Both the position numbers and the translations under genes were made by a program. Below are positions 25,480 to 42,800 of a stretch of 64,000 bases of DNA, one piece after another (the first letter of the stretch is position 1; every line of letters begins with the position of its first letter). The notes under the pieces are model-generated. The model was given only the letters and a program-made list of their open reading frames with translations, was not told where the DNA came from and did no database searches. This DNA is from an uncultured Croceitalea sp. (GTDB taxonomy: Bacteria; Bacteroidota; Bacteroidia; Flavobacteriales; Flavobacteriaceae), in the NCBI GenBank assembly GCA_947499565.1, contig CANMOV010000003.1, forward strand, positions 62,001 through 126,000, in the 5' to 3' direction.

Positions 25480-26856
25480 TTGGTAAAAACCTTACGACCA
25501 TATATTAAATTACATAAATACTCCATTTTAATAGTTCTGGGGTGCATTCTTTTTTATCTAAGTTTCGCATATGATTTAGATAGGGAAGATTTTACAAAAT
25601 TGATGTTGTTATATGGGGCCTTGGTTTTCTTCCACTACAAATTAATCCAGTTCGAAAAATGGAATTTTAAATTTCTGTTGATTGCTGGAATCCTTTTTAG
25701 ATTGGTCTTTGTAATTGCAGAGCCTAATTTATCACAGGACTTCTATCGTTTTATTTGGGATGGGGAGTTAATCAAAAATGGAATAAATCCATACCTACAC
25801 ACTCCAAATACTTTAATTGAAAGACCAGATTTTGCGATTACCAATTCTCAAGAATTATATAATGGAATGGGCGCTCTTAGCGCTAGGCACTACAGTAATT
25901 ACCCCCCGCTTAACCAGTTAATTTTTACCGTTTCTACTTATCTTGGAGGAGGAAGTGTTTTAGGTTCTTTAATAATCATGCGCCTAAGTATAATTCTAGC
26001 AGATATAGGCATTTTATATTTTGGTAGAAAGCTTTTGAAGATTATTGGGAGTTCAACACATTTAGCTTTTTGGTATTTTCTAAATCCCTTGGTAGTTATT
26101 GAATTAACTGGGAACTTACATTTTGAAGGTGTAATGCTCTTTTTCTTTGTTTGTTCCATTTACCTTATTTCCATAAACAAATGGAAACTTGCCGCGCCTG
26201 TTTATGCGATGTCTATATTATTAAAACTAGTTCCGTTGCTTTTCTTACCATTATTATTAAAATATTTTGGGTTTAAAAAGAGTGCCATTTTTTATACTTT
26301 AATAGGAGTTACTTCCCTAATATTTCTTCTTCCTTTCATTTCTCCAGAATTCCTAGCTAATTATTCAAAAACTGTTGGACTCTGGTTTTCTAATTTTGAA
26401 TTCAATGCTTCTATCTACAATATTGTCAAAAAAGTTGGAGTTCATTATTTTGAAGCTAAACCCTGGGAGTTGGTAAAATCTTATGGCAATCTTGTACCTA
26501 AACTTGTGATTTTAATCGCCTTGTTACTAACTTTTCTGAGGAAAAATAAAAATATTAAAACATTGCTTGGTTCCATGCTGATATTACTAACAAGCTATTA
26601 TTTTCTTTCCAGCACGGTACATCCTTGGTACATTATTTTTCTACTAACACTGACTATTTTTACCAATTATCGCTTCCCAATAGTCTGGTCAGTTCTGGTA
26701 ATTTTAAGCTATTATGCCTATTCCAACCCAGAATTTAAAGAGAATCTTTGGCTGTTAGCTATTGAATATAGTTTGGTTTTAGGGTATATCATTTATGAAA
26801 TTTTTAAAAATCATAACACATTATCACTGTTTCGTAAAAAATTCACTCAAAAATAG
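25480..26856 (+). CDS. GT-C fold mannosyltransferase-like membrane protein
   Basis: 458 residues, about ten to twelve membrane helices. An early extracytoplasmic loop contains SQDFYRFIWDGELIKNGINP, whose acidic residue after a helix is the mark of GT-C transferases that use polyprenyl-phosphate sugars; PYLHTP and YPPLNQLIF are shared with polyprenol-phosphomannose-dependent mannosyltransferases. The start is a TTG at 25480, the only plausible codon before the first helix. The sugar and acceptor are not deducible. Upstream GT2 DPM1-like gene at 21070 could supply the lipid-linked sugar, which is inference. Confidence 0.82.
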   Translation: MVKTLRPYIKLHKYSILIVLGCILFYLSFAYDLDREDFTKLMLLYGALVFFHYKLIQFEKWNFKFLLIAGILFRLVFVIAEPNLSQDFYRFIWDGELIKNGINPYLHTPNTLIERPDFAITNSQELYNGMGALSARHYSNYPPLNQLIFTVSTYLGGGSVLGSLIIMRLSIILADIGILYFGRKLLKIIGSSTHLAFWYFLNPLVVIELTGNLHFEGVMLFFFVCSIYLISINKWKLAAPVYAMSILLKLVPLLFLPLLLKYFGFKKSAIFYTLIGVTSLIFLLPFISPEFLANYSKTVGLWFSNFEFNASIYNIVKKVGVHYFEAKPWELVKSYGNLVPKLVILIALLLTFLRKNKNIKTLLGSMLILLTSYYFLSSTVHPWYIIFLLTLTIFTNYRFPIVWSVLVILSYYAYSNPEFKENLWLLAIEYSLVLGYIIYEIFKNHNTLSLFRKKFTQK

Positions 26857-26890
26857 CGGCGTTCAGATTAATTTGTACATTTACCACATA

Positions 26891-26971
26891 ATGAACGAGC
26901 AAAACAACATATTTACTTCAGGAAGTCATTTGGCTCCAGTGCGTCTGTTCGCTCCCCGCCGCCGCCCGTAA
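26891..26971 (+). CDS. candidate arginine leader peptide
   Basis: A 26-codon ORF, ATG at 26891 and TAA at 26969-26971, lying between the GT-C gene and the first gene of the arginine operon. The last ten residues read VRLFAPRRRP: one CGT and three consecutive CGC arginine codons next to the stop. The stretch 26951-26968 is almost pure G+C in a very AT-rich genome, and CGC is scarce in the neighbouring genes, which prefer AGA. An arginine-rich short ORF directly before arginine biosynthesis genes is the classic form of a leader peptide for attenuation: scarce Arg-tRNA would stall the ribosome at the run. The downstream gene starts 90 bases after this stop. Confidence 0.75.
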   Translation: MNEQNNIFTSGSHLAPVRLFAPRRRP

Positions 26972-26976
26972 GGGTG
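26963..26976 (+). promoter_or_regulatory. GNRA-capped hairpin over the leader's Arg codons and stop
   Basis: CGCCC (26963-26967) and GGGTG (26972-26976) pair around the tetraloop GTAA (26968-26971), one pair being G-U. The hairpin contains the last Arg/Pro codons and the stop, so a ribosome stalled at the arginine run would melt it. GTGC at 26939-26942 can instead pair with GCAC at 26976-26979, giving an alternative fold. A third stem, GGAAAT (26990) with ATTTCC (27006), lies downstream; no T-tract follows immediately, so no standard terminator is visible. Confidence 0.5.
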
Positions 26977-27061
26977 CACATATATCTATGGAAATAGGTG
27001 AGTCCATTTCCGCAAGTTCCAAAAACATTTTTTCAAATTATTTATTCAAAAACATTTAGCA

Positions 27062-27676
27062 ATGGAAATCATTGTTGCTAACGAATCACATTTTAAGTAC
27101 GCTCAAATCATAAGCGACACCATTACCGATTCTGCAAAAGTACGGGGGACAGGAATTGCCCAACGCACTCCTGAGTATATTATTAAAAGATTAGAAAACG
27201 GAAACGCAGTAATTGCTCTTGATGGTGATACATTTGCCGGCTTCTGTTATATAGAGGTATGGGGAAATAAAGGATATGTTGCTAATTCTGGCTTAATTGT
27301 GCATCCTGATTTTAGAAATCAAGGACTGGCCAAAAGAATAAAAAAGCGAATTTTTGAGCTATCAAAAGAAAAATTTCCAGATGCCAAAATCTTTGGAATT
27401 ACTACAGGTTTGCCAGTTATGAAAATGAACTATGAATTGGGCTACAAACCAGTTACATTTTCGGAGCTAACGGATGACCCAGATTTTTGGAAAGGCTGTC
27501 AGACATGCAAAAATTTTGATATTCTAACACGTACAGAACGTAAAATGTGTTTATGCACTGGGATGCTATATGATCCCGTTACTAAATCAAAGAAAAAAGA
27601 AAAATTAAACAGTAAAGCTTTTAAAAGATTAAAAGGCATTAAAGAAAATCTGTTTCTAAAGAAAAAATCAAAATGA
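27062..27676 (+). CDS. GNAT acyltransferase heading the arginine operon
   Basis: 204 residues with one GNAT domain; the acyl-CoA loop is VHPDFRNQGLAKRI, with RNQGLA at 85-90. Unusual are four cysteines after the domain (Cys146, Cys149, Cys163, Cys165; CQTC and CLC), a possible metal site. No argA or argJ is otherwise present in the operon, so this enzyme probably performs the first step, acylating glutamate at its amino group; in view of the argF' residue Ser90 the acyl group may be succinyl. That is inference from position. The gene overlaps argG by four bases. Confidence 0.8.
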   Translation: MEIIVANESHFKYAQIISDTITDSAKVRGTGIAQRTPEYIIKRLENGNAVIALDGDTFAGFCYIEVWGNKGYVANSGLIVHPDFRNQGLAKRIKKRIFELSKEKFPDAKIFGITTGLPVMKMNYELGYKPVTFSELTDDPDFWKGCQTCKNFDILTRTERKMCLCTGMLYDPVTKSKKKEKLNSKAFKRLKGIKENLFLKKKSK

Positions 27677-28857
27677 AAAAACTAGTACTCGCATATAGTG
27701 GCGGATTGGATACTTCCTATTGCGCAAAATACCTTTCAAAAGAAAAAGGGTATGAGGTACATGCCGTAAGTGTAAATACTGGAGGTTTTTCGGCAAAAGA
27801 AATCAATACAATAAAAGAAAAAGCAATTGCTCTTGGTGCAACAAGCTATACTTCTATAGATTCCGTGCAGCGCTTTTATGACAAAGTAGTTAAATACTTA
27901 ATTTTTGGTAATGTTTTACGGAATAATACCTATCCACTTTCGGTAAGTGCAGAACGAATTGTCCAAGCGGTAGAAATTGTAAATCATGCTAAACAGGTGG
28001 GCGCAAAATATATAGCTCACGGTAGTACTGGAGCCGGTAATGATCAGGTAAGGTTTGATATGATTTTTCAAACCTTAGCGCCAGATATTGAAATTATCAC
28101 CCCAATAAGAGATAATAAATTAGCTAGGGAAGAAGAGATTGCCTATTTAAAAGCAAACGGTGTTGATTACTCTTGGGAAAAGGCAAAATATTCTATTAAT
28201 AAAGGATTGTGGGGAACTTCTGTTGGTGGCGATGAGACCTTAACTTCTAACCTGCCGTTACCAGATTCTGCATACCCAAGTCAGCTTCAACAAAAAGAAC
28301 CATCTGAAGTTAAATTGACTTTTAATAAAGGTGAATTAGTAGCTATAAATGATGAGAAGAATACTCCTATTGCTAATATTGAAAAATTAGAAGTACTCGC
28401 ATCTAAATATGCCATAGGCAGAGATATACATGTAGGAGATACTATTATAGGTATTAAGGGAAGAGTAGGGTTTGAAGCTGCTGCTCCATTACTAATAATC
28501 AAAGCCCATCATTTACTAGAAAAACATACGCTAAGTAAGTGGCAACAATACCAAAAAGAACAGTTGGGTAATTTTTACGGAATGTTACTACATGAAGGTA
28601 ATTATTTGGATGAAGTCATGAGAAACACCGAAGCTTTTTTAACAGACACTCAAAAGAATGTTTCCGGTGATGTTTTTGTAGGACTTTATCCTTTCCAGTT
28701 TAGATTACTTGGCATTGATTCCCGACACGACTTAATGAATGCTTCTTTTGGTAGTTATGGTGAAATGAACAAAGGCTGGACAGCAGATGAAGCCAAAGGT
28801 TTTATAAAAATATTATCCAATCCTGGAAAAATTGCAAACCATGTAAACTCCAATTGA
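27673..28857 (+). CDS. argG: argininosuccinate synthase
   Basis: Joins citrulline and aspartate with ATP. 394 residues; the PP-loop AYSGGLDTSYC at 8-18 binds ATP, and AHGSTGAGNDQVRFD, YSINKGLWGTSVGGDE and SFGSYGEMNKGW follow the family. Starts four bases inside the GNAT gene, so translation is coupled. Placed early in an operon holding all arginine steps, which makes ornithine-derived citrulline (after deacylation by argE) its substrate. Confidence 0.96.
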   Translation: MKKLVLAYSGGLDTSYCAKYLSKEKGYEVHAVSVNTGGFSAKEINTIKEKAIALGATSYTSIDSVQRFYDKVVKYLIFGNVLRNNTYPLSVSAERIVQAVEIVNHAKQVGAKYIAHGSTGAGNDQVRFDMIFQTLAPDIEIITPIRDNKLAREEEIAYLKANGVDYSWEKAKYSINKGLWGTSVGGDETLTSNLPLPDSAYPSQLQQKEPSEVKLTFNKGELVAINDEKNTPIANIEKLEVLASKYAIGRDIHVGDTIIGIKGRVGFEAAAPLLIIKAHHLLEKHTLSKWQQYQKEQLGNFYGMLLHEGNYLDEVMRNTEAFLTDTQKNVSGDVFVGLYPFQFRLLGIDSRHDLMNASFGSYGEMNKGWTADEAKGFIKILSNPGKIANHVNSN

Positions 28858-28890
28858 GAGTGGATTATTATTAGTAAAATAAAACAAGAT

Positions 28891-29865
28891 ATGATCAAAG
28901 CAGGAATTATTGGAGGTTCTGGATACACTGGAGGTGAATTAATCAGATTATTACTAAACCATCCTAAGGCAGAAATCGACTTTGTATATAGTACCACTAG
29001 AGCTGGCAAAAAAATAGCGCATACACATCAGGACCTTTTAGGGCAGACTGACCTGAAGTTTTCAGACTCGATAAATGAAACTGTTGCTATTGTCTTCTTA
29101 TGTTTGGGGCATGGGAATTCTTCTAAATTTTTAGAAGAAAATACTTTTTCTGATCAAACCAAAATCATTGATTTAAGCAATGATTTTAGACTGCAACAGG
29201 ATTCCGTTTTTCAAGGAAAAACATTTGTATATGGACTGCCAGAATTGTTCAAAAAAGAAATTAAAGAAGCAAATTTTATTGCCAATCCAGGTTGTTTTGC
29301 AACAGCAATTCAGTTAGCATTGCTGCCATTAGCAAAAGAAGGGTTTCTTAAAAATGAAGTTCATATTAATGCGATAACCGGCAGCACAGGAGCAGGAATA
29401 AAACCCTCAGAAACTACACATTTTAGCTGGCGAAATAACAATGCTAGTTGGTATAAACCTTTTACACATCAACATTTAGGAGAAATAGGAGAAAGTTTAA
29501 GTTCTTTTGGGAATAAAGTTGGAAAGTTACAATTCCTACCAAATAGAGGAAACTTCCCAAGGGGGATTTTAGCGACAGCTTATAACAAGTTTGATGGACG
29601 TCTTGAAGACGCTCAAAACTTATTTCAAGACTATTATCAAGAAGCCCTTTTTACAAACATTTCAGAAGAACCAATCCACCTAAAACAGGTAGTGAACACC
29701 AATAACTGTCATATTCATTTACACAAACATGAAGATGTATTATTGATTACATCTGTAATAGACAATTTATTAAAAGGAGCCTCTGGACAAGCAATTGAAA
29801 ATATGAATTTAATGTTCGGATTGGAAGAAGGTTTGGGCTTACAATTGAAAGCAGGGGTCTTTTAG
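28891..29865 (+). CDS. argC: N-acyl-gamma-glutamyl-phosphate reductase
   Basis: 324 residues. NADP-binding GGSGYTGGELIRLL at 8-21 and the nucleophile Cys135 in ANPGCFATAIQLAL. FLPNRGNFPRGIL and a C-terminal LMFGLEEGLGL complete the family. Reduces acylglutamyl phosphate to the semialdehyde; whether the acyl is acetyl or succinyl is set by the other enzymes. Only two bases separate it from the VOC gene. Confidence 0.95.
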   Translation: MIKAGIIGGSGYTGGELIRLLLNHPKAEIDFVYSTTRAGKKIAHTHQDLLGQTDLKFSDSINETVAIVFLCLGHGNSSKFLEENTFSDQTKIIDLSNDFRLQQDSVFQGKTFVYGLPELFKKEIKEANFIANPGCFATAIQLALLPLAKEGFLKNEVHINAITGSTGAGIKPSETTHFSWRNNNASWYKPFTHQHLGEIGESLSSFGNKVGKLQFLPNRGNFPRGILATAYNKFDGRLEDAQNLFQDYYQEALFTNISEEPIHLKQVVNTNNCHIHLHKHEDVLLITSVIDNLLKGASGQAIENMNLMFGLEEGLGLQLKAGVF

Positions 29866-29867
29866 TT

Positions 29868-30290
29868 ATGAAACAAAAAATAGCACATATAGCATTGGTA
29901 GTTAGAGAGTATGATGAAGCCATTGATTTTTATACTAAAAAATTAAATTTCAATCTAGTTGAGGACACTAAGCTAGATGATAATAAAAGATGGGTAGTTG
30001 TTTCCCCTCCTGGAGCGGCAGAATGTTTTCTTTTATTGGCCAAAGCTGCAAATGAAAAACAACTTCAAAGTGTAGGTAATCAATCTGGCGGAAGAGTATT
30101 TCTTTTTTTATTCACTGACGATTTTTGGAGAGATTATAATCTAATGTGTGAAAAAGAAATAAAATTCATTAGAAAACCTAAAGAAGAAATATACGGCACA
30201 GTAGCTGTTTTTGAAGATTTATATGGAAATCTATGGGATTTACTCGAACCAAGTGATAAAAATAAAGGGATTCTAAAAAAGAGTATATGA
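29868..30290 (+). CDS. VOC-family (glyoxalase/bleomycin-resistance fold) protein
   Basis: 140 residues, one VOC domain: KIAHIALVVREYDEAIDFYTKKLNF (first half), then FLFTDDFWRDYNLM and a C-terminal EDLYGNLWDLLEP, where the Glu at the end and the His near the start (HIALVV) are typical metal ligands. These proteins range from glyoxalases to dioxygenases and resistance proteins. It is inserted between argC and proC with two-base spacing and a four-base overlap, so it is a fixed member of the operon. A role in detoxifying or repairing a reactive semialdehyde is possible but unproven. Confidence 0.85.
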   Translation: MKQKIAHIALVVREYDEAIDFYTKKLNFNLVEDTKLDDNKRWVVVSPPGAAECFLLLAKAANEKQLQSVGNQSGGRVFLFLFTDDFWRDYNLMCEKEIKFIRKPKEEIYGTVAVFEDLYGNLWDLLEPSDKNKGILKKSI

Positions 30291-31081
30291 AACTAGCAAT
30301 AATAGGAGCAGGTAATTTAGGATTGGCCATTGCAAAAGGCATATTACATAGCAATGGAGCTACTACTATGTATCTAACCAAAAGAAATACAGCTGAAATC
30401 GCGGCCTTTGAAAAGTACGGAAATGTGACTGTTACTTCAGATAATTCTGAAGCGGTTAAAAATTCAGATATTTTAATTTTTGCAGTTCAGCCAGGTCACT
30501 TTGAAGCCATCTTACATGACATCAAAGACCTCTTAAGTGACAATCATGTAATCATGAGCACAATTACTGGGTTTGGTATTAATAAGATAGAATCTATTAT
30601 TGGTTCCGATAAATATATTATTAGAAGTATGCCAAATACTGCAATATCTGTAGGTAAATCCATGACTTGTATTTGCAGCAATGGACTAGGTAAAAAACGA
30701 ATAGATTTAGCTAAAGCCATATTCAATAGAATGGGTAACTCTTTAGAAATTCCTGAAGAGCAAATGCAAGCCGCGACGGTCATTTGTGCCAGTGGAATTG
30801 CTTTTTGGATGCGATTAATAAGAGCAACTACCCAAGGTGCTATACAGTTGGGGTTTGATGCTAAAGAAGCGCAAGAATTGGCAATGCATACTTGCAATGG
30901 CGCTGCAAGCTTATTGATTGAATCTGGAAGTCATCCAGAGGAGGAAATTGATAAAGTTACTACGCCTAAAGGCTGTACTATTTCTGGGCTAAATGAGATG
31001 GAGCATCAAGGCTTAAGCTCATCACTAATTAGAGGAATAGTGACTTCATTTGAAAAAATAAGTGACATAAGAAAAGACTAA
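30287..31081 (+). CDS. proC: pyrroline-5-carboxylate reductase
   Basis: 264 residues. Rossmann start GAGNLGLAIAKGIL at 7-20; RSMPNTAISVGKSMT and the C-terminal TTPKGCTISGLNEMEHQGL are the ProC signatures. Makes proline from pyrroline-5-carboxylate. Its presence in the arginine operon links proline and ornithine metabolism, both starting from glutamate. Overlaps the VOC gene by four bases and is two bases from argD. Confidence 0.95.
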   Translation: MKLAIIGAGNLGLAIAKGILHSNGATTMYLTKRNTAEIAAFEKYGNVTVTSDNSEAVKNSDILIFAVQPGHFEAILHDIKDLLSDNHVIMSTITGFGINKIESIIGSDKYIIRSMPNTAISVGKSMTCICSNGLGKKRIDLAKAIFNRMGNSLEIPEEQMQAATVICASGIAFWMRLIRATTQGAIQLGFDAKEAQELAMHTCNGAASLLIESGSHPEEEIDKVTTPKGCTISGLNEMEHQGLSSSLIRGIVTSFEKISDIRKD

Positions 31082-31083
31082 TT

Positions 31084-32211
31084 ATGAAACTATTTGATGT
31101 TTATCCGCTTTATGACGTTACTCCAGTTTCCGCCAAAGGAATTGAAGTGATTGATAATAAAGGTCAAAAATATTTAGATTTTTACGGTGGTCACGCCGTA
31201 ATTTCCATTGGTCATTCACATCCATACTATGTAAAACGAATGACCGAACAGCTAGAGCATATTGCTTTTTATAGTAACTCTATAAAAAATCCGTTGCAAA
31301 TTGAACTTGGCGAAAAATTAGGTATAGCTTCCAATTGTGATGACTATCAACTATTTATGTGCAGTTCTGGAGCCGAAGCCAATGAAAATGCACTAAAAAT
31401 GGCATCATTTCATACAGGTAAGTCTGGTGTTATCGCATTTAAAAATAGTTTTCATGGAAGAACTTCAGCCGCTGTAGCAACAACAGATAATCCAAAAATA
31501 AATGCGCCTATAAATCAACAACAAAAAGTAGACTTTGTTCCTTTAAATGATTACGAAGCTTTTGAGAAAACCATCGCCACAAACAAGCATTGCGCAGTGA
31601 TTCTAGAAGCTATTCAAGGTGTTGGTGGTTTGGATGAGCCCACAACTGAGTTTTACCAATTTATAGCTCAAAAATGTGAAGAACATCAGGTGGTTTTAAT
31701 TGCAGATGAAGTACAATCAGGTTTTGGACGAAGTGGCAAATTCTTCGCTTTTCAGCACCATGGAGTAAAACCAGGAATAATTTCTATAGCCAAAGGAATG
31801 GGCAATGGCTTCCCTGTTGGTGGAGTACTTATTCATAATTCCTTTGCTCCCTCTTACGGGCTTCTAGGCACTACATTTGGTGGAAATCATTTGGCCTGTG
31901 TAGCTACACTTGCTGTTTTACAAGTCTTAGAAAAAGAAAATCTTGAAGAAAACGCAGCTAAATTAGAAAATCATTTTAGAGCGATTGCAAAGACAATTCC
32001 TCAAGTTAAAAGGGTAAAAGGCAGAGGTCTTATGCTAGGTCTTGAATTTGATTTTGAAGTCGCTGATTTAAGAAAAAAATTAATCTATAATCAGCATGTT
32101 TTTACAGGTGGTTCAGCCAACAAAAAATTATTGCGTTTTTTACCTGCGCTAAATATTACCAAAGAACAAATTAATATGTTCTTTGCAGCCATAAAAGCAG
32201 AATTACCATGA
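31084..32211 (+). CDS. argD: N-acylornithine aminotransferase (class III PLP enzyme)
   Basis: 375 residues. The PLP-binding lysine is Lys237 in ISIAKGMGNGFPVGG; LIADEVQSGFGRSG holds the cofactor Asp, and SSGAEANENALKMA near 100-113 the phosphate-binding turn. Transfers the amino group from glutamate to acylglutamate semialdehyde. Overlaps argF' by four bases. The class includes ornithine and succinylornithine transaminases; the operon context makes the biosynthetic role clear. Confidence 0.94.
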   Translation: MKLFDVYPLYDVTPVSAKGIEVIDNKGQKYLDFYGGHAVISIGHSHPYYVKRMTEQLEHIAFYSNSIKNPLQIELGEKLGIASNCDDYQLFMCSSGAEANENALKMASFHTGKSGVIAFKNSFHGRTSAAVATTDNPKINAPINQQQKVDFVPLNDYEAFEKTIATNKHCAVILEAIQGVGGLDEPTTEFYQFIAQKCEEHQVVLIADEVQSGFGRSGKFFAFQHHGVKPGIISIAKGMGNGFPVGGVLIHNSFAPSYGLLGTTFGGNHLACVATLAVLQVLEKENLEENAAKLENHFRAIAKTIPQVKRVKGRGLMLGLEFDFEVADLRKKLIYNQHVFTGGSANKKLLRFLPALNITKEQINMFFAAIKAELP

Positions 32212-33149
32212 AACATTATATTTCCATAAACGATTTAGGGAATCTGCAAAGTGCAGTTAAAGAAGCCATTTCTTTAAAAAAAGACCCTTATGCTTTTGAA
32301 GCATTAGGAAAGCAAAAAACTATTTGCTTATTGTTCTTTAACAACAGTCTTCGAACACGGTTAAGCACTCAAAAAGCAGCGATAAATTTGGGTATGAAAG
32401 CTATGATCATGAATTTTGGCAGTGAAGGCTGGCAGTTAGCTTTCGAGGATGGTACGGTAATGAATGAAGGTAAATCTGAACACATAAAAGAAGCAGCACA
32501 AGTAGTATCACAATTTGCAGATATTATAGCTATTAGAGCATTTGCAGGCCTAGTTGACAAAGAAAAAGATGAAGCAGAAGTAGTTTTAAATGGCTTTATA
32601 AAATATGCTACTATCCCAGTAGTAAATATGGAAAGCTCCGTAGCACACCCTTTGCAAGCTTTAGCAGACGCTATAACTCTAAAAGAAAGCCAAACAGTTC
32701 CTAAACCAAAAATAGTTTTATCATGGGCACCTCATCCAAAAGCTTTACCACATGCGGTTGCAAATTCTTTTGTAAAAATGATGAAACTCCAAGATGCAGA
32801 CTTTGTAATTACATATCCTAAAGGATACGAATTGAATCCTGATATCACAAAGGGTTGTAAAATTGTGCATAATCAGGAGGAAGCATTAGAAAATGCGAAC
32901 TTTGTCTATGTAAAAAACTGGAGTAGTTATGCAGATTATGGAAAAGTACTTTCTCAAGATAAGAATTGGATGATGACAAAAAGAAAGCTCGGGAATGCCA
33001 AATTCATGCATTGCCTTCCAGTAAGGAGAAACGTAGTAGTGGAAGATGCCGTTTTAGATAGCAACCAAAGTTTAGTTATTGAACAAGCAAACAATAGAAC
33101 CTATTCAGCGCAATTGGTTATAAAACGCTTATTGGAAGATTTAAAATAA
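32208..33149 (+). CDS. argF': N-succinylornithine/N-acetylornithine carbamoyltransferase
   Basis: 313 residues, transcarbamylase fold acting on an acylated ornithine rather than ornithine. SLRTR at 47-51 binds carbamoyl phosphate, and MHCLPVRRNVVV is the HCLP substrate loop. The loop residue that decides the acyl group lies in the GKSEHIKEA segment: residue 90 is Ser. From memory of published work, the Bacteroides fragilis enzyme (succinyl) has Pro at 90 and the Xanthomonas enzyme (acetyl) has Glu at the equivalent position 92; a Glu-to-Ser change there gives succinyl specificity. Ser90 therefore favours N-succinylornithine. Confidence 0.9.
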   Translation: MKHYISINDLGNLQSAVKEAISLKKDPYAFEALGKQKTICLLFFNNSLRTRLSTQKAAINLGMKAMIMNFGSEGWQLAFEDGTVMNEGKSEHIKEAAQVVSQFADIIAIRAFAGLVDKEKDEAEVVLNGFIKYATIPVVNMESSVAHPLQALADAITLKESQTVPKPKIVLSWAPHPKALPHAVANSFVKMMKLQDADFVITYPKGYELNPDITKGCKIVHNQEEALENANFVYVKNWSSYADYGKVLSQDKNWMMTKRKLGNAKFMHCLPVRRNVVVEDAVLDSNQSLVIEQANNRTYSAQLVIKRLLEDLK

Positions 33150-33176
33150 AATATCATTTTGACAAAGCTTAGTGCC

Positions 33177-33194
33177 GAGAAATCTAGATTTCTC
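33177..33194. repeat. 18-base perfect palindrome, part of a degenerate intergenic repeat
   Basis: GAGAAATCTAGATTTCTC reads the same on both strands. With the preceding TGACAAAGC it resembles the TGTCAT...CGAGAAATCT elements scattered through Bacteroidota genomes. It separates argF' from the 61-aa gene inside the arginine operon, and as RNA would form a nine-base-pair hairpin with no loop room beyond the centre. Confidence 0.6.
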
Positions 33195-33228
33195 ACCTAA
33201 AGACAAGATGTAAGTTAAAAGAACAGTT

Positions 33229-33414
33229 ATGGACACAAAAAATAAATTACGCTATGGCCTCGCAATAGTAGCTGGCATTCTATTAGTGCTCTATTTTATC
33301 AGAATGGATTTTCAAAATTTTGATTGGGGAGATTTATTAGGCCCAATTTCGATGCTACTTGTAATAATTGCAATGATACTTGAAATAAGAAATTCTAAAA
33401 AAAGTGAAGCATAA
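33229..33414 (+). CDS. 61-residue two-helix membrane protein
   Basis: Two hydrophobic helices, about 8-24 (YGLAIVAGILLVLYFIR) and 34-52 (LLGPISMLLVIIAMILEI), separated by an acidic DFQNFDWGD loop, with a basic tail. No family is recognised. It ends 11 bases inside argB, whose GTG start lies within it, so it is translated with the arginine genes. It could be a passenger or a membrane-located regulator. Confidence 0.7.
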   Translation: MDTKNKLRYGLAIVAGILLVLYFIRMDFQNFDWGDLLGPISMLLVIIAMILEIRNSKKSEA

Positions 33415-34183
33415 CCTTTCCATAGTAAAAATTGGTGGTAACATCATTGAAAATGAGACCGAGCTTTCAAAATTCTTGACTTTATTCTCAAAAATTGATG
33501 GTCCTAAAATTTTGGTTCATGGAGGTGGGAAAAAAGCTAATCAAGTATTGCAAAAAATGGGGATTGAACCCAAAATGGTAAACGGCCGAAGAATTACAGA
33601 TATAGCAAGTTTAGATGTTGCTATTATGGTATACGGAGGGCTTACCAATAAGAAAATCGTTGCGGAACTTCAATCTATGAATTGTAATGCTATAGGAATG
33701 AGTGGTGCGGATGCTAATGCAATTATAGCTCATAAAAGACCTATAAAAGAAATTGATTATGGATTTGCTGGGGACGTAGACAGCGTCTCAAATAAAACAT
33801 TGAGTTCAATTTTGGAATTAGGGCTTACACCAATATTTTGCGCCTTAACACACAATCAAAAAGGACAATTATTAAATACAAATGCAGACACTATTGCCTC
33901 CGAATTAGCTATTGGAATGAGTGCGGATTTTGAAACAACCCTTTATTACTGCTTTGAGTTAAATGGAGTATTAAAGAATTTTGATGATAAAAACTCTGTC
34001 ATTAAAAATATAGATTCAGATGCCTATAAAACTCTAATTACAGAAGGGGTAATTGCAGATGGAATGCTTCCAAAAATGCACAATTGTTTTCATGCCCTTA
34101 AAAAAGGCGTGAAAGAAGTTAGAATAGGTAATTTAGCCTTGTTCGACAATTCAAATACAAATTATACAACACTAGTCTTATGA
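33404..34183 (+). CDS. argB: N-acylglutamate kinase
   Basis: 259 residues of the amino-acid kinase fold. LSIVKIGGNIIENE at 5-18 (ATP phosphate), LVHGGGKKANQVLQKMG around 46-62 (glycine loop), NGRRITD and LNTNADTIASELAIG (acyl-glutamate site). Phosphorylates N-acetyl- or N-succinylglutamate. Begins with GTG inside the preceding small membrane gene and overlaps argE by four bases. There is no N-terminal extension of the arginine-feedback-inhibited kind, so control may lie at the leader peptide. Confidence 0.93.
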   Translation: MKHNLSIVKIGGNIIENETELSKFLTLFSKIDGPKILVHGGGKKANQVLQKMGIEPKMVNGRRITDIASLDVAIMVYGGLTNKKIVAELQSMNCNAIGMSGADANAIIAHKRPIKEIDYGFAGDVDSVSNKTLSSILELGLTPIFCALTHNQKGQLLNTNADTIASELAIGMSADFETTLYYCFELNGVLKNFDDKNSVIKNIDSDAYKTLITEGVIADGMLPKMHNCFHALKKGVKEVRIGNLALFDNSNTNYTTLVL

Positions 34184-35250
34184 CGATTGATAAAGACACC
34201 TTGGCTCAGGAGGCCATAGCACTATTAAAGCAACTAATTTCTATTCCCTCATTTTCAGAGGAAGAAGATGAAACTGCAGCAGCTATTGATACATGGCTTA
34301 AAAAGTTTAGTGTAAAGACTAAACGCCAGTACAATAATATTTATGCTTTTAATAAGTATTATGATGAAAGCAAACCAAACTTATTATTGAACTCTCATCA
34401 TGATACCGTAAAACCAAATTCCGCTTATACGAAAGACCCATTTCATCCTCATGTGGAAGATGGCAAATTATATGGATTAGGTAGCAATGATGCTGGTGGT
34501 TGTTTATGTTCTTTGTTAGCGACTTTTATCCACTTCTATGAGCGAGATGATTTAAAATATAACATTATTATGTCCGCTACAGCAGAAGAGGAAGATGCTG
34601 GAGATTTAAGTATTTCTGCCCTACTACCAATTCTTCCGAAGATTGACCTTGCTATAGTTGGCGAGCCAACTTTAATGCAATTGGCAATTGCTGAAAAGGG
34701 GTTGATCGTTTTTGACGGAAAAATAGAAGGAACTCCCTCACATGCGGCGCACCCTAATGATAACAATTCAATTTATAATACCATTGAAGTTTTAGAATGG
34801 TTTAAAAACTATAACTTTCCTAAAATTTCAGAAGTTCTCGGGCCAGTGAAAATGACAGTCACTCAAATAAATGCTGGTTCCCAACACAATGTGGTCCCAG
34901 CACATGTAGATTTGGTAATAGATACTCGTGTAAATGATTGCTATACAAACGAGGAAATAAATACTATCCTTCAAAAAGAAGCCCCTTGTGAGTTAACACC
35001 AAGATCTTTAGATAAAAGTAGTTCTGCAATTGCTATTGATCACCCTTTGGTACAATCGGGTATTGCTATTGGAAGGGAAACTTATGGTTCTCCTACCCTT
35101 TCTGACCAAACGGAATTGAGCTGCCAATCTTTAAAATTAGGCCCTGGCGATAGTACTCGTTCACATTCCGCCAATGAATACATTTATGTTCATGAAATTG
35201 AAGAAGGCGTTGATTTATATATTAAAATTTTAGAAGGATTTTTACAATAA
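34180..35250 (+). CDS. argE: N-acylornithine/N-acylcitrulline deacylase (M20 family)
   Basis: 356 residues, di-zinc M20 peptidase. NSHHDTVKP near residue 67-75 provides the first His and Asp, GLGSNDAGG the bridging Asp, TAEEEDAGD the catalytic Glu pair, and GDSTRSHSANEYI the last His. In a pathway using an acyl-ornithine transcarbamylase, the substrate is N-acylcitrulline. Four-base overlap with argB. Confidence 0.93.
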   Translation: MTIDKDTLAQEAIALLKQLISIPSFSEEEDETAAAIDTWLKKFSVKTKRQYNNIYAFNKYYDESKPNLLLNSHHDTVKPNSAYTKDPFHPHVEDGKLYGLGSNDAGGCLCSLLATFIHFYERDDLKYNIIMSATAEEEDAGDLSISALLPILPKIDLAIVGEPTLMQLAIAEKGLIVFDGKIEGTPSHAAHPNDNNSIYNTIEVLEWFKNYNFPKISEVLGPVKMTVTQINAGSQHNVVPAHVDLVIDTRVNDCYTNEEINTILQKEAPCELTPRSLDKSSSAIAIDHPLVQSGIAIGRETYGSPTLSDQTELSCQSLKLGPGDSTRSHSANEYIYVHEIEEGVDLYIKILEGFLQ

Positions 35251-35274
35251 ACAGTAATCATTTAACAATGTCCA

Positions 35275-35299
35275 ATTGATAATTGTTCATTGATAATTG
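35275..35299 (+). repeat. short direct repeats before argH
   Basis: ATTGATAATTG occurs at 35275-35285 and again at 35289-35299 (14-base period). TGTTCA (35284) and TGAACA (35305-35310) are also inverted around it, just before the argH ATG. It looks like the AT-rich intergenic repeats of flavobacteria and may be neutral. Confidence 0.45.
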
Positions 35300-35312
35300 C
35301 AAATTGAACATC

Positions 35313-36596
35313 ATGAAACTCTGGGACAAAGGCTTTAGTACAGATAAAAAAATAGACAATTTTACAGTTGGTAACGACCGTGAACTGGATTTGGTTCTAG
35401 CAAAATATGATGTTATCGCTTCAAAAGCTCATGCAAAAATGTTAAGTAAAGTTGAGCTTATTTCAGAGAGTGAAGCCAATGCGCTGGTAAAGGAACTGGA
35501 AATAATTAATCAATCCATTGAAAAAGGAGAGTTTACTATAGAAGATTCTTTTGAGGACATGCACTCCAAAATAGAGTTTTTACTAACAGAAAAACTTGGG
35601 GATACTGGAAAGAAAATACATACTGCACGTTCTAGAAATGATCAGGTTCTAGTGGCAATGCATTTGTACTTAAAAGATGAATTAACAGAAATTAAAGGAA
35701 TGGTGAAAAGTCTTTTTGACTTACTCTTGAAGTTGGCCGAAAAGCACGAAAAAGTATTATTGCCGGGCTATACTCACCTTCAAATTGCAATGCCTTCATC
35801 TTTTGGATTATGGTTTTCCGCCTATGCAGAAAGTTTGATTGATGATTTATATTTTATTAAAGCAGCATATAAAATAGCTGACCAAAATCCTTTAGGCAGT
35901 GCTGCGGGTTATGGGAGTTCTTTTCCTATAGACCGAAGTTTTACTACACAAGAAATGGGTTTTGAAACTTTAAAATACAATGTAGTAGCAGCACAAATGG
36001 GACGGGGAAAAGTAGAAAAAGCTACCGCTTTTGGAATCTCATCTATCGCTTCCACACTTTCTAAATTAGCAATGGATATAACTGTCTACATGAGTCAAAA
36101 TTTTGATTTTATCTCCTTTCCAGATAAACTCACCACGGGTAGTAGTATTATGCCACATAAAAAGAATCCAGATGTTTTTGAATTGGTCCGTGCTAAGTGC
36201 AACAAAATTCAGGCAATCCCAAATCAATTAATATTAATCACCAATAACTTACCAAGTGGCTACCATCGAGATTTACAATTGGTTAAAGAAGTAATTGTAC
36301 CGGCTTTGCAGGATATGAAAGCTTGCCTTGAAATTCTCACTTTTAGTTTAAAGGAAATCAAGATTAACAAGGACGTTTTAAAAGACCCCAAATACGATTA
36401 CTTATTCAGTGTAGATACCCTAAATGAAATGGTCAAAAACGGAATGCCTTTCCGAGATGCCTATAAAACAATGGGGAAGGCCATTGAGAATGGTAATTTT
36501 AAACCAAAAAAGGACATTTCGCACAGCCATGAGGGTAGTTTAGGCAATTTGTGTTTAGAGGACATCAAGGAGAAAATGAATAATTTCCTTAGTTAA
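35313..36596 (+). CDS. argH: argininosuccinate lyase
   Basis: 427 residues from the ATG at 35313 (MKLWDKGF), which is where family proteins begin; the frame is open ten codons further upstream but through repeat-like AT sequence. The superfamily signature GSSIMPHKKNPDVFE is complete, with the flexible catalytic serine; HTARSRNDQVLVAMHL and PGYTHLQIAMPSSFG are the other conserved regions. Final step, releasing fumarate and arginine. Last gene of the operon; 250 bases separate it from the large surface-protein gene. Confidence 0.95.
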   Translation: MKLWDKGFSTDKKIDNFTVGNDRELDLVLAKYDVIASKAHAKMLSKVELISESEANALVKELEIINQSIEKGEFTIEDSFEDMHSKIEFLLTEKLGDTGKKIHTARSRNDQVLVAMHLYLKDELTEIKGMVKSLFDLLLKLAEKHEKVLLPGYTHLQIAMPSSFGLWFSAYAESLIDDLYFIKAAYKIADQNPLGSAAGYGSSFPIDRSFTTQEMGFETLKYNVVAAQMGRGKVEKATAFGISSIASTLSKLAMDITVYMSQNFDFISFPDKLTTGSSIMPHKKNPDVFELVRAKCNKIQAIPNQLILITNNLPSGYHRDLQLVKEVIVPALQDMKACLEILTFSLKEIKINKDVLKDPKYDYLFSVDTLNEMVKNGMPFRDAYKTMGKAIENGNFKPKKDISHSHEGSLGNLCLEDIKEKMNNFLS

Positions 36597-36847: not shown

Positions 36848-39800
36848 ATGTTTAAAAAGCTACTCTTTTTATATACATTTTTAGTCACTACAATTATTTA
36901 TTCTCAAGGCTTTTCTAGTATTTGGGATACAGAACAAATTGGCTCTCCCAATAATGAGATAAGAATTCCTACCAACCCAGCATTTACATATAATTATGAT
37001 ATTGATTGGGGTGATGGCGCAACGGATACCAATATAACCGGAGATATTACACACACTTATGGTTCACCAGGAATATATACTATAGAAATTACAGGAGCTT
37101 TCCCTGCAATTTATTTCAATAACAATGGTGATAGAAGAAAGATTATAGAGATTTTAAGCTGGGGTAATATACAATGGCAATCTATGGAATCTGCTTTTTA
37201 CGGTTGCCAAAACCTCAATTTTGATGCAATAGATGCTCCTGATTTATCTAACGTAAGCACCTTACAAGATATGTTTAGGAGATGTTCCGCTTTTAATGGC
37301 ATTCTAAATAACTGGGATGTTAGTGGAGTAACTAATATATCTGGAATATTTGCCGATGCCATTGTTTTCAATAGACCCTTGGATAACTGGGTTACCAACT
37401 CAATTACGGATATGTCATCCGTTTTTGAAAATGCCTCTTTATTTAACGAACCATTGGATAATTGGAATACTGCTGCTGTAGAAAATATGGAAAATATGTT
37501 CTCCGGAGCTAGCCTGTTTAACCAAGATATTAATAATTGGATAGTTACCCAAGTTACCAATATGGCTGGAACCTTTAGGGCTACTGTAAGCTTTAATAGA
37601 CCCTTAAACAATTGGGTGGTTAACAATGTAACTGACATGTCTAGAATGTTTAGTTCTTCCGCTTTTAATCAAAATATTGCCGGATGGAATGTAAGTGCAG
37701 TTACTAATATGTCTGAAATGTTCAGCAATACGCAATTCAATCAACCAATAGAAAGTTGGAATGTAGGTTTGGTTACCAACATGAGCTTTATGTTCAGTAG
37801 TAACAGGTCCTTTAATCAACCTTTAAATCTATGGGATGTTAGCAATGTTGAAAATATGAGCAGTATGTTTAGAGGTTCTGGAGCTTTTCCTACTGTTTTT
37901 AATCAACCTTTAAATCTATGGGATGTCAGTAGTGTACAAAACATGAGTAGCATGTTTGAAGTAGCCGAATTTAATCAGCCTATTAATGATTGGGAAGTTG
38001 GTAATGTAACGGATATGAGTAACATGTTTTCTGGATTTAGCACATTCATATACAACTTTAACCAACCCTTAGATCAATGGGATGTTAGCAGCGTTACTAA
38101 TATGAGTGGTATGTTTCAATCTTCACCATTTAACCAAGCTATTGGCAATTGGGATGTTACTAATGTAGAAAACATGAGCAACATGTTTAACAGGGCTTTA
38201 GATTTCAACCAACCTTTGAATGGCTGGGTAACTACTTCACTTAGTAATACCTCTGGGATGTTCTCAAATGCTTCAGCATTCAATCAACCACTGAATAGCT
38301 GGAATACCAATTTAATTGTTAACATGCCAAATATGTTTGCCAATGCATTAGTATTTAATCAACCTCTAAATAATTGGAATACAAGCTTGGTTAGTAGTAT
38401 GCAAAATATGTTTACTGATGCTTTAGCATTTGACCAAAGCTTAGCGGATTGGAATATTAGTCAAGTAACCGATATGACTAGTATGTTGAACAATACCGCA
38501 TTATCACTAGAAAATTATGACGCCACCTTAATTGGGTGGGCGGCACAAACGGTGAATAACAATGTTAGTCTTGGCGCTGATGGACTTACCTATTGTGATG
38601 GAAGAGAAGAGAGACAAGAACTTATTGATACAAATGGATGGAGCATAACTGGAGATACTGTTGACTGTAGTTTTGTGTTATGTACCTCTTTTAGCTCCCC
38701 AACAAATGGTGACACTAATGTACCTGCCAACTTTGATTTAAGATGGAATCCGGCTCCCAATGCCACGGGGTATAATGTAAGTGTGAGCTATGTTCGTGGA
38801 GGAGTTACCACTGTTGTATTAGATAATTCAGATGAAGGTAATGTAGTTGGCATTGATTTTACAACCGACTTTCAACCTGGAGATATAGTTACGGCTCAAG
38901 TAGTTCCCTATAATGGTGATGGCCCAGCAACGGGTTGTGAAGAAATTACTTTTACGGTAGTTCCAAACTGGAGAGATGGCACTGATGCTTTTAAACTTAC
39001 CATAGATACTAGAAATGTTACTTTTCCAGGTAATTATTCAAATGCCAATCAATTTAGAATAACTGCCAGATCAGGTGTAACTTATAATTATTCTATTGAT
39101 TGGGGAGATAATCAATTTGACAATAACGTTGACAATACGATTACGCATACTTATTTGACCCCTGGTATATATACTATTGCAATTATTGGTGATTACCCAG
39201 CACACTTCTATCCAAGTCCATTTGCAGATAATGATAAACTACTAACTATTGATCAGTGGGGAACTATTGAATGGGAAATATTAGAATCCGCCTTTTATTC
39301 CTGTGGTGCGTTTACAGGTTATAATGCCACTGATACTCCAGATTTATCAAGGGTTACAGACATTTCTAGAATGTTTGAGTCTTCCAACTTTAATGGTAAC
39401 ATTAATAACTGGGATGTAAGTAACATAGAAAACATGTCTCGAACTTTTATTGGAATGAGTCTTTTTAATCAACCATTAAATGACTGGGATGTCGGCAATG
39501 TGACCGATATGAGTGATATGTTTTTAAGCACCCGTAATTTCAATCAACCATTAAATCAATGGGATGTAAGCAAGGTAGTCTCTATGCGCAGAATGTTTGA
39601 TGGATTTAGTAGTAATATGGCCTTTAATCAAAATTTAAATGATTGGGATGTAAGCAGTGTTAGAGACATGACCTCTATGTTTAGCTTCTGTGTTGATTTT
39701 AATCAACCATTAAATAATTGGGTTCCATCATCTGTCACAACAATGGAAGAGATGTTTGATAGCACTACTTCTTTTAATCAAGATATTTCTAGTTGGGACG

Positions 39801-42800
39801 TATCGGCCGTTCAGAGTATGAACGGGATGTTCAGAAATGCCACTAGTTTTAATCAGTCTCTGGATAATTGGACAGTTTCAGCAGTACAGAATATGGCATC
39901 TATGTTTCAAAATGCCACAAATTTTAATCAGTCTTTAAACCAATGGGATGTTATTAATGCAACAACTATGGCATTTATGTTCCAAGAAGCCACGAGCTTT
40001 AATCAGTCTATAGGAAATTGGGATGTTGCTAATGTAATAAATATGGAGGCCATGTTTAGAAATGCATCTGTATTTAATCAAAATATAGACCCTTGGAATG
40101 TTACAAGTGTGATAAATATGAGTTCTATGTTCGAAGGAGCTAGCGCTTTTAATTCTCCATTGAACAATTGGGATGTAAATTCAGTGGTGAATATGACATC
40201 AATGTTTAAAGATGCTATTGCTTTTGACCAGCCTTTAGGTTCATGGGATGTTAGTGCCGTTGCAAACATGTCCTCAATGTTTCAAAATGCTCAGCTTTTT
40301 AATCAAGATATTCAAAATTGGAATGTGAGTTCGGTTACGCTTATGAACGCTATGTTCGAAGATGCTGGTGCATTCGCAAGTCCAATGCAAAATTGGCAAG
40401 TAGGCTCGGTAACCAGAATGGACAATATGTTCAAAAATGCGCTAGTATTTAATAGTCCTATAAATAATTGGGATACTGGAGAAGTACTAACTATGCAGGA
40501 AATGTTCAGTGGTGCAACCACCTTTAATCAAAATATAGACAGTTGGGATGTTTCTTTTGTTACTACAATGCAAGAAATGTTTAAAGATGCCACATCTTAC
40601 AATCAGCCTATGGATTCGTGGAATGTAGCATCGGTAAACACAATGTTTGGAATGTTTCAAAATACTACTGCCTTTAATGGCACCATAGATAGTTGGAACG
40701 TTAGAGGAGTTACTACCATGGAAAGCATGTTTGATAATGCTACTTCATTTAATCAAACTATAAACAGTTGGAGAGTATCTGGAGTTGAAAATATGAACGC
40801 TATGTTCAGAAACGCATTAGCTTACAACCAAAGTATGGATCGCTGGGATTTGGGCAATGTTACCATGAACGCTATGTTTCTAGATGCTTCAGCCTTAAAT
40901 CAAACTCTTGAGGATTGGAATATTAGCGGTGTAAGTAATATGGCAAATATGCTAGATAATACTGCTTTGACTAGGGAAAACTATGATAATACACTTATTG
41001 GATGGTCAGAACAAACTTTAACCAATGGAATAACATTTGGTGCTCTAGGTTTGCCCTATTGCGATGCTTTAGAAGAAAGACAATTCATCATAGATTCCTT
41101 TGGGTGGACTATTATAGGTGATGTTCTAGATTGCCCTATTCCAGAATGCACCCAATTAGTCTCTCCTTTGAATGGAGCAACAGCTGTACCTGTAAATACA
41201 AATTTAACTTGGGAACCTTCACTTTTTGCAAGAGGATATCGTTTAACCGTGGGGACAATAGCTGGAGGAAATGATATTGTAAACAACGAAACAATAAATA
41301 ATGCTACTTCGTATGAATTTGCAGCAGATTTTGCCGGTGGTGAAACCGTTTATGTAACTATTATTCCTTTTAATGATGAAGGTGATGCCGTAGGTCCTTG
41401 TGCCGAGGAGAGTTTTACAATATCTAATGATGCAGCTACCATACCAGATTGCACTTCACTTATTAACCCTTTAAATACTGCTACCGATGTCGTTATCGAT
41501 ACAGATTTAAGCTGGAATCCAATAGCTAATGCAGACGGATATCGTCTTACTGTAGGAACATCTTCCGGAGCTAGCGATATTGTTAATGATGAAGATGTAA
41601 ATAGTGTTACCACTTATGATTTTACTTCAGATTTACCAGAGGATACCCAAATCTTTGTTACGATAACTCCGTATAATGAAGAAGGAGATGCCCTTACATG
41701 TGCTGAGGAAAGTTTTACTACTGAAATCATTCCTGTAGCACCAGCATGTACAAATATTAGTGATCCATTAAACAATGCTACTGACGTTCCTGTTGGCACC
41801 AATCTTAGTTGGGATGCTGTAGATGGAGCTACTGGCTATTTAGTAGTTGTAGGAACAACTCCCGGTGGTATCGAAATTGCAAATAATATAGATGTAAACA
41901 ATACAACTACCTATGATTTTCCAGTCGATTTACAAGAAAATAGAACCTTTTATGTGACAATTATACCATATAACGAAGTTGGTGATGCTACAGGCTGTTC
42001 TGAGCAGAATTTTAGAACAGCTACCATACCAACAGCACCTGTCTGTACAACACTTAATAGTCCTGCTGATGGTGCTATTGATGTAGCCATAAATCTTGCT
42101 AGTATTTCTTGGGGAGCTGTAACAAATGTCGATGGGTATCGATTGACCGTTGTAGGAAGTAGTAGTACTGCTAATAATGAAACGAATCTTGATATCACAT
42201 CAGGGACTACGCATAACTTTGCAAATAACTTTGATAATGGGGAAACCATTACAGTTACAATTGTACCTTACAATGCTGTTGGTGATGCTACCGGATGCAC
42301 TTCGGAAAGTTTTACCATTGTTGCCACTACACCTACCGTACCATCATGCTCAAGATTAATGGGTCCGGATAACGGGGCTATAGATGTACCTATTGATACG
42401 GATATTACTTGGGATCCTATCGCAAACGCTGATGGATACAGATTAACTGTAACAGGAAGCAGTAGCACGGCAAACAACTTGGTAAATGAAGACGTTACAA
42501 CAGGAGCCTTTTATGATTTACCAGGCAATTTTGACAATGGAGAAACAGTCACAGTAACCATTGTTCCATACAACGCTGCAGGGGATGCAGTTGGATGCGT
42601 TTCGGAGAGCTTTACCATAATTGGGAGTGCACCTTCTGAACCAGCTTGTACAACACTAATAAATCCAACCGATGGGGATACTAATATAGCTTTAGATCTT
42701 GCTAGTATTTCTTGGAATGCCGTAGCCAATGCAGATGGGTATCGATTGACCGTAACGGGAAGTAGCAGTACTGCTAATAATGAAACCAATCTTAATATCA

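Follow-up and report, generated by a model that had tools for sequence, protein, structure and literature searches.

A short arginine-rich open reading frame (ORF) upstream of the arginine operon in an uncultured Croceitalea sp. would function as the sensor of a ribosome-based arginine attenuator, with an early stop of expression that depends on a factor. From the sequence comparisons, we put the probability of this reading at about two in three. Its parts differ in strength: arginine sensing by the leader is very probable, and a read-out at the level of transcription, rather than of translation or decay, is probable. The ORF, its arginine bias, two hairpins (H1 and H2), the linkage of these features to the operon and the lack of a detectable ArgR domain were established by comparison of related loci and genomes. 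The initial annotation of this DNA had read the leader as an arginine attenuation device, and the comparisons support that reading.

Arginine-rich leader ORF and downstream operon

The window, that is, the whole 64,000-nucleotide stretch of DNA analysed, belongs to a genome of 3.88 Mb in 19 contigs (97% complete). The leader ORF encodes 26 residues (MNEQNNIFTSGSHLAPVRLFAPRRRP-stop) with the C-terminal end VRLFAPRRRP, and the last three of its four Arg codons are CGC CGC CGC, followed by CCG TAA. A gap of 90 bases separates the stop codon from the start of the GNAT gene (27062). The ORF, its C-terminal end, the triple CGC and the 90-base gap to an arginine operon had all been described in the initial annotation and were confirmed in the sequence.

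The operon comprises ten genes, with the GNAT gene as the first and argH as the last (Table 1). The NCBIfam curated cut-offs were passed by argC, proC, argB and argH, and the other genes were named from a best match below cut-off or from Pfam; by Pfam, the M20 gene encodes an ArgE/DapE-like deacylase. A glyoxalase-family gene (29868-30290) and proC (30287-31081) lie inside the operon, between argC and argD. Directly after argH, there is an ORF of 2327 residues (36848-43831) that carries 12 stretches of DUF285, one PKD domain and, at its C-terminus, a type IX secretion signal domain (CHU_C).

Table 1. Features of the leader region and the arginine operon, in positions of the window.
Feature	Position	Strand	Basis or detail
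Bacteroidetes-type -7 promoter-like box TACATTTA	26876..26883	+	Motif; 7 nt before leader ATG
Arg-rich leader peptide ORF	26891..26971	+	ATG 26891-26893, stop TAA 26969-26971
Three consecutive Arg codons, proposed sensing site	26957..26965	+	Sequence
Hairpin H1, CGCCC-GUAA-GGGUG	26963..26976	+	Overlaps last Arg codon, Pro codon and stop codon
Hairpin H2, GGAAAU, bulged A, GG-UGAGU-CC, AUUUCC	26990..27011	+	Alignment and covariation
First operon gene, GNAT-family acyltransferase	27062..27676	+	Pfam PF00583, E 1.3e-6, above cut-off
Remaining operon: argG, argC, glyoxalase family, proC, argD, carbamoyltransferase, argB, M20 deacylase, argH	27673..36596	+	NCBIfam best matches, some below curated cut-offs; Pfam for glyoxalase-family and M20 genes

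Conservation, arginine content and codon choice of the leader

The relatives' GNAT gene was detected in 46 of 79, and the best 30 loci were used. A further 80 named loci were the best of at least 589 from GTDB genomes, 79 of them labelled Flavobacteriaceae and one Bacteroidota only; among these best 80, the closest named relatives by the GNAT gene were Croceivirga, Flagellimonas and Allomuricauda. The 110 loci gave 105 distinct elements, including that of the window, after three identical copies and two loci without the H2 core (L076 and L095) were dropped.

The conservation on which the initial annotation depended was found in the alignment of relatives: the ORF, its frame and its Arg run were all conserved, and the frame was open in the register of the window ORF at all 105 distinct loci. 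Arginine accounted for 15.4% of the leader codons (471 of 3061, 105 loci), compared to 2.5% (165 of 6490) in the window genes. The ten codons before H1 contained 3.11 Arg on average in frame, compared to 0.56 and 0.43 in the two alternative frames. For the pN/pS values and the promoter-box counts, 62 loci were chosen in which an in-frame ATG gave 25-29 codons; pN/pS was 0.56 in frame versus 0.82 and 1.08 in the shifted frames (212 pairs, less than 45% different). The script-assigned start codons of the 105 leaders (74 ATG, 20 TTG and 11 GTG) are putative in the distant relatives.

The leaders also differed from the window genes in codon choice. CGU or CGC made up 420 of the 471 leader Arg codons versus 27 of 165 in the window genes, in which AGA was used in 91 of 165. 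At the leader Arg positions CGT and CGC interchanged, with 110 CGT and 107 CGC when the last two codons are left aside. The tRNA-Arg anticodons in the window's own genome were ACG, TCG, TCT and CCT among the tRNAs scanned, and tRNA-Arg(ACG) decodes CGU and CGC under standard wobble rules. The initial annotation had attributed the CGC codons and the G+C richness to selection for slow decoding. Slow decoding was not supported, given the interchange of CGT and CGC; the codon choice is notable for its avoidance of AGA. Because relatives swap CGT and CGC and the G+C richness is partly owed to H1, CGC as such does not appear to be selected; arginine and its isoacceptor are upheld as the probable selected feature.

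The Bacteroidetes -7 consensus is TAnnTTTG. Within 60 nt before the leader ATG, TAnnTTTR was present in 58 of the 62 loci, and the gap to the ATG was 7 or 8 nt in 54 of the 62; these counts are motif evidence. With the box placed 7-8 nt before the ATG, the 5' end of the transcript is expected at the leader ATG or a few bases ahead of it. A transcription start downstream of the leader, which the initial annotation had named as an outcome against its reading, is not what the motif indicates, since the promoter-like box was found upstream of the ORF. A sigma-70-type scan of the + strand gave no promoter-like site ahead of the leader, with a pattern that does not cover Bacteroidetes promoters.

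A lone 26-codon ORF can arise randomly, and H1 by itself forces the sequence CGCCCG, so that the leader might be accidental or a by-product of a structured region rich in G+C. This explanation has a negligible probability, as it is contradicted by the open frames at 105 of 105 loci, the frame controls, the codon choice, the pN/pS values and the spacing of the promoter-like box.

Conserved RNA element with two hairpins

By alignment, H1 and H2 together form a conserved RNA element, which was absent from the account in the initial annotation. H2 follows H1 after about 12-13 nt in the 105 elements and lies, on average, about 50 nt before the first gene. In the whole element 94.1% of cells were paired, and 8 of the 13 pairs had two-sided changes. 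The two-sided changed cells numbered 87, compared to 32.0 in shuffles (0 of 500 as high), and dropped to 19-21 when the partners were slid by one column. Unguided consensus folding of 60 whole leaders returned H1 and H2 and just these two helices. Single-sequence folding of the window leader was not more stable than shuffles (z 0.40), a result that is uninformative for one sequence.

The two hairpins did not contribute equally. H2 was paired in 94.6% of cells, and seven of its eight pairs changed on both sides; its bulge ended in A in the alignment, and its tip, GG-UGNGU-CC, was invariant or nearly so, with N being A in 79, U in 20 and C in 6 of the 105 sequences. H1 was paired in 93.1% of cells (105 sequences), and a two-sided change occurred in one of its five pairs only, from C-G to A-U in 3 sequences (CCC/GGG to CAC/GUG). 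The outer pair of H1 was broken in 25 of 105 sequences. Given these outer-pair failures and the single two-sided pair, H1 rests on less covariation than H2.

Two possible assignments of the element were rejected. No Rfam family matched at the gathering score; the best overlap was Fusobacteriales-1, with 34 bits against a cut-off of 52.1, and an Rfam search in 14 relatives gave nothing up to E 1. A T-box riboswitch or another Rfam family was ruled out by these sub-cut-off scores. Sharing of H1/H2 with other operons of the same genome was also rejected: the exact H2 core TAGGTGNGTCC occurs twice, and the model matched the genome once.

The near-invariance of the H2 tip over 105 sequences would suit a small riboswitch or a protein-binding site, for which the ORF is incidental or merely opens the RNA. 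Two pairs below the loop, a bulged A is a typical trait of hairpins that are bound by proteins, and the bulged A of H2 adds to this likeness. Against it, Arg is present in codons -2 to -10 in 101 of the 105 loci, so that the Arg codons reach upstream of H1, and many genera carry a second Arg-rich leader further upstream. We consider this explanation improbable.

Leader ending and ribosome position

Arg occupied the last codon before the Pro position in 105 of 105 loci, a count that is partly by construction, the codon one earlier in 95 and the codon two earlier in 73. The Arg codon within H1 was CGC in 105 of 105, a count that is also partly by construction, as the extraction preferred CGC. 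The N-terminal half of the leader peptide was variable, and the terminal Arg cluster was its conserved part (105 loci).

The conserved ending bears on nascent-peptide arrest, known from the fungal arginine attenuator peptides, TnaC and SpeFL. In such a case, an R-R-P-stop peptide would bind arginine in the exit tunnel and stall the ribosome at termination. In 100 of 105 loci the last Arg codon was followed by Pro, and the stop codon was within the H1 loop in 95 of 105, as such a peptide would have it. However, the pairing of H1 can account for both the Pro and the stop codon, the N-terminal half is variable, and in 10 of 105 loci the stop was shifted downstream with both Arg codons kept and the Pro-stop ending altered (RRTFVRV, RRLVRV, RRPLGAI, etc.). 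Because the stop moved in these loci while both Arg codons stayed, codon sensing is favoured over arrest at termination, and we regard peptide arrest as very improbable.

The effect of a ribosome on the hairpins was modelled by masking in 60 leaders. With the A site on the second-last Arg codon, the mean probability of H1 fell from 0.72 to 0.00; this drop is a consequence of the footprint that was assumed and is no independent evidence. When the mask was instead placed on an Arg position nine codons upstream of the stop, H1 stayed, at a probability of 0.89. A terminating ribosome also covers H1 under the assumed footprint, and H2 was hardly affected by any mask (0.59-0.71). Because a ribosome at the stop codon hides H1 as well, and H2 is predicted in all states, the switch would have to depend on timing. 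Provided that the assumed footprint is correct, the time that the ribosome spends on the Arg cluster would decide whether H1 folds, with H2 as the constant part.

Terminator, antiterminator and level of the read-out

No intrinsic-terminator-like site was detected in 26700-27200. Behind H2, at least 6 T in the next 12 nt were present in 2 of 105 elements and a TTTT run in 11 of 105. An intrinsic terminator after H2 was accordingly rejected, for want of a U-tract and of a terminator-like site. No covarying alternative pairing was found, the 60-leader consensus fold consisting of H1 and H2 only, and the short candidates were nearly invariant. Among them, an antiterminator CGCC:GGUG or GGGU:GUCC was rejected, as it was nearly invariant, showed no covariation and was not fully kept in the H1 variants (CGCAC/GUGCG). 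With an H2 that lacks a U-tract and no covarying antiterminator, the leader does not appear to be a textbook trp/his device.

An arginine-sensing leader could also be read out by translation or mRNA stability, in which case the ribosome position would alter the fold and H2 or a nuclease would decide the fate of the message. This is consistent with the lack of a terminator in the leader, and H2, at its distance from the first gene, is near enough to act on the message. A precedent is the orf34-speF leader of Salmonella, in which two consecutive Arg codons, rare or frequent, sense arginine and which works via Rho-dependent termination, unfolding of a structure at the ribosome-binding site and RNase G, as described in passages of PMC6386406. 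It is unlike the flavobacterial leader in that its target is a polyamine gene and in its peptide, RNA and phylum. Against such a read-out, an alignment of 60 loci that stopped before the GNAT start codon showed no conserved pairing between H2 and the sequence leading to that codon, and the distance from H2 to the ATG exceeds 100 nt in some loci, which argues against a fixed role in initiation. We consider a read-out by translation or stability rather unlikely.

Tandem leaders in relatives

The window locus has the one-leader form. A second Arg-rich leader further upstream was present in 38 of the 45 loci outside the near group (33 by script and five by eye), about 220-420 nt upstream of the GNAT start; an example is MKNLKNKIRCTTPGLPVRLCRRF, and the loci include L016, L018-L027, L029-L031 and many of L079-L111. 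The 33 second leaders found by script contained 157 Arg in 733 codons, with a promoter-like box of their own 4-5 nt before the start. In the 38 loci, the opening codons of leader 1 pair with sequence that follows this leader, mostly a U-rich tract, giving a putative long-range AU-rich stem. Its mean duplex energy was -14.6 kcal/mol versus -10.9 with foreign partners (0 of 2000 permutations as low), and the native partner beat 80% of the foreign ones in 22 of 38 loci, both comparisons being uncorrected for kinship. In a quick GNAT tree, the one-leader/two-leader label required 4 changes, with several labels set by hand.

Two leader peptides before one gene are also known for ermB, where they control erythromycin-induced translational attenuation of the resistance gene, as described in passages of PMC8274638; ermB differs from the tandem-leader relatives by its induction by a drug.

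Distribution of the element and absence of an ArgR domain

A scan of 395 genomes of the phylum at E 0.01 gave matches in 20 genomes. Sixteen were strong (E 1.3e-6 or better), all within Flavobacteriaceae, and the other 4, outside the family, had E values of 0.0037-0.0084, about chance level. In 149 Flavobacteriaceae genomes, one per genus, there were 96 element matches in 93 genomes, and the GNAT gene was detected in 99. The element was located directly upstream of the GNAT gene in 91 of the 96 family matches, on the same strand and at 37-237 nt. The remaining five were one strong match, in G509, and four weak ones (E 0.00117 to 0.00482) that were taken as chance. In G509 (L148:959-1543), an ORF without a GNAT or Pfam match replaces the GNAT gene, with the element and leader upstream and argG downstream; by eye, a tandem leader accompanies this element. 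As G509 keeps the element without the GNAT gene, the element appears to belong to the operon and not to that gene.

Eight genomes had a GNAT match but no element match. Seven were clear (G040, G098, G490, G494, G506, G535 and G561), and the GNAT match of the eighth, G501, was marginal. By eye, a leader ORF with Arg codons persists at several of the element-less loci, its hairpins being changed or absent.

At L076, L095, L141/L155, L149, L150, L152 and L153, the Arg leader was kept, by eye, and the H2 tip was lost or H2 was missing; L141, for instance, has a plain hairpin. In the large genus g64, a different conserved leader ORF (MNKISLHITSLSRTN..SPEVRTLSL-like) was seen by eye at eight loci (L132-L139). 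It lies 200-330 nt before the GNAT start, its Arg codons are CGG, and it is accompanied by a hairpin ACTTC-TCCC-GAAGT. This type of leader was not seen in two other g64 loci (L143 and L144), and 19 g64 genomes among those listed for the phylum scan gave no element match.

ArgR/AhrC is a protein repressor that gives arginine-dependent control of arg genes. The C-terminal domain of this repressor (PF02863, Arg_repressor_C) was found in none of the 149 Flavobacteriaceae genomes, including that of the window, whereas 8 of 14 control genomes were positive, a Bacteroides among them. The initial annotation had reported no ArgR gene in the window, and this extends to the whole genome and the family at the level of the domain search.

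Proposed mechanism

In the proposed attenuator, transcription would begin near the leader ATG and a ribosome would translate the leader. When charged Arg-tRNA for CGU/CGC is scarce, the ribosome would halt on the terminal Arg cluster, cover H1 and prevent it from folding, and RNA polymerase would continue into the arginine operon. When arginine is plentiful, the ribosome would run on to the stop codon, which lies in the H1 loop, and be released, and H1 would form beside the constant H2. Expression would then end early, most likely by premature transcription termination via a factor, such as Rho or a reader of H2; a factor would be needed because no U-tract terminator was found. In many genera, the second Arg-rich leader upstream may provide an additional gate. 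Stalling, the direction of the response and the level of the read-out are the steps that we infer.

The fullest form of this proposal is tentative, and we hold it at somewhat less than even odds. It sees a family-wide arginine attenuator that replaces ArgR and that has its sensors in tandem in many genera. The read-out would involve neither an intrinsic terminator nor the hiding of a ribosome-binding site; instead, a protein, Rho/RNA polymerase or the ribosome would recognise the H2 tip, with H1 in a licensing role.

Relation to known attenuators and significance

Ribosome-mediated transcription attenuation is known for the trp, his, leu, ilv, thr and phe leaders. The present leader resembles the trp/his-type attenuators in that a short ORF rich in codons for the end product follows just after the promoter, here a promoter-like box, and is itself followed by hairpins, one of which (H1) overlaps the control codons and the stop codon. 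It is unlike them in the amino acid, arginine, in that neither a U-tract terminator nor a covarying antiterminator was found, in the near-invariant H2 tip, and in the tandem second leader of many relatives.

In the same bacterial family, a study of Flavobacterium psychrophilum reported strong indications that leader peptide attenuation acts ahead of operons for amino-acid biosynthesis, along with structured 5' elements that lack an Rfam match, such as those of pheA and hisG (passages of PMC9723704, which do not name the arginine operon). A literature search that left subscription papers largely uncovered returned no report of an arginine leader peptide for Flavobacteriaceae, which does not prove that there is none.

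The H1/H2 element is an RNA motif with strong covariation and without an Rfam match. With one strong copy per genome, in front of one operon, it may offer a clean system for studying attenuation without a visible terminator. The tandem leaders of relatives are natural variants for asking what a second sensor adds, and the loci with an Arg leader and a degenerate H2 could reveal what H2 is for. If the proposed attenuator is true, arginine would join the amino acids for which leader peptides act as sensors in biosynthetic operons, and the control of arginine synthesis would be explained in Flavobacteriaceae, a family in which no ArgR domain was found.
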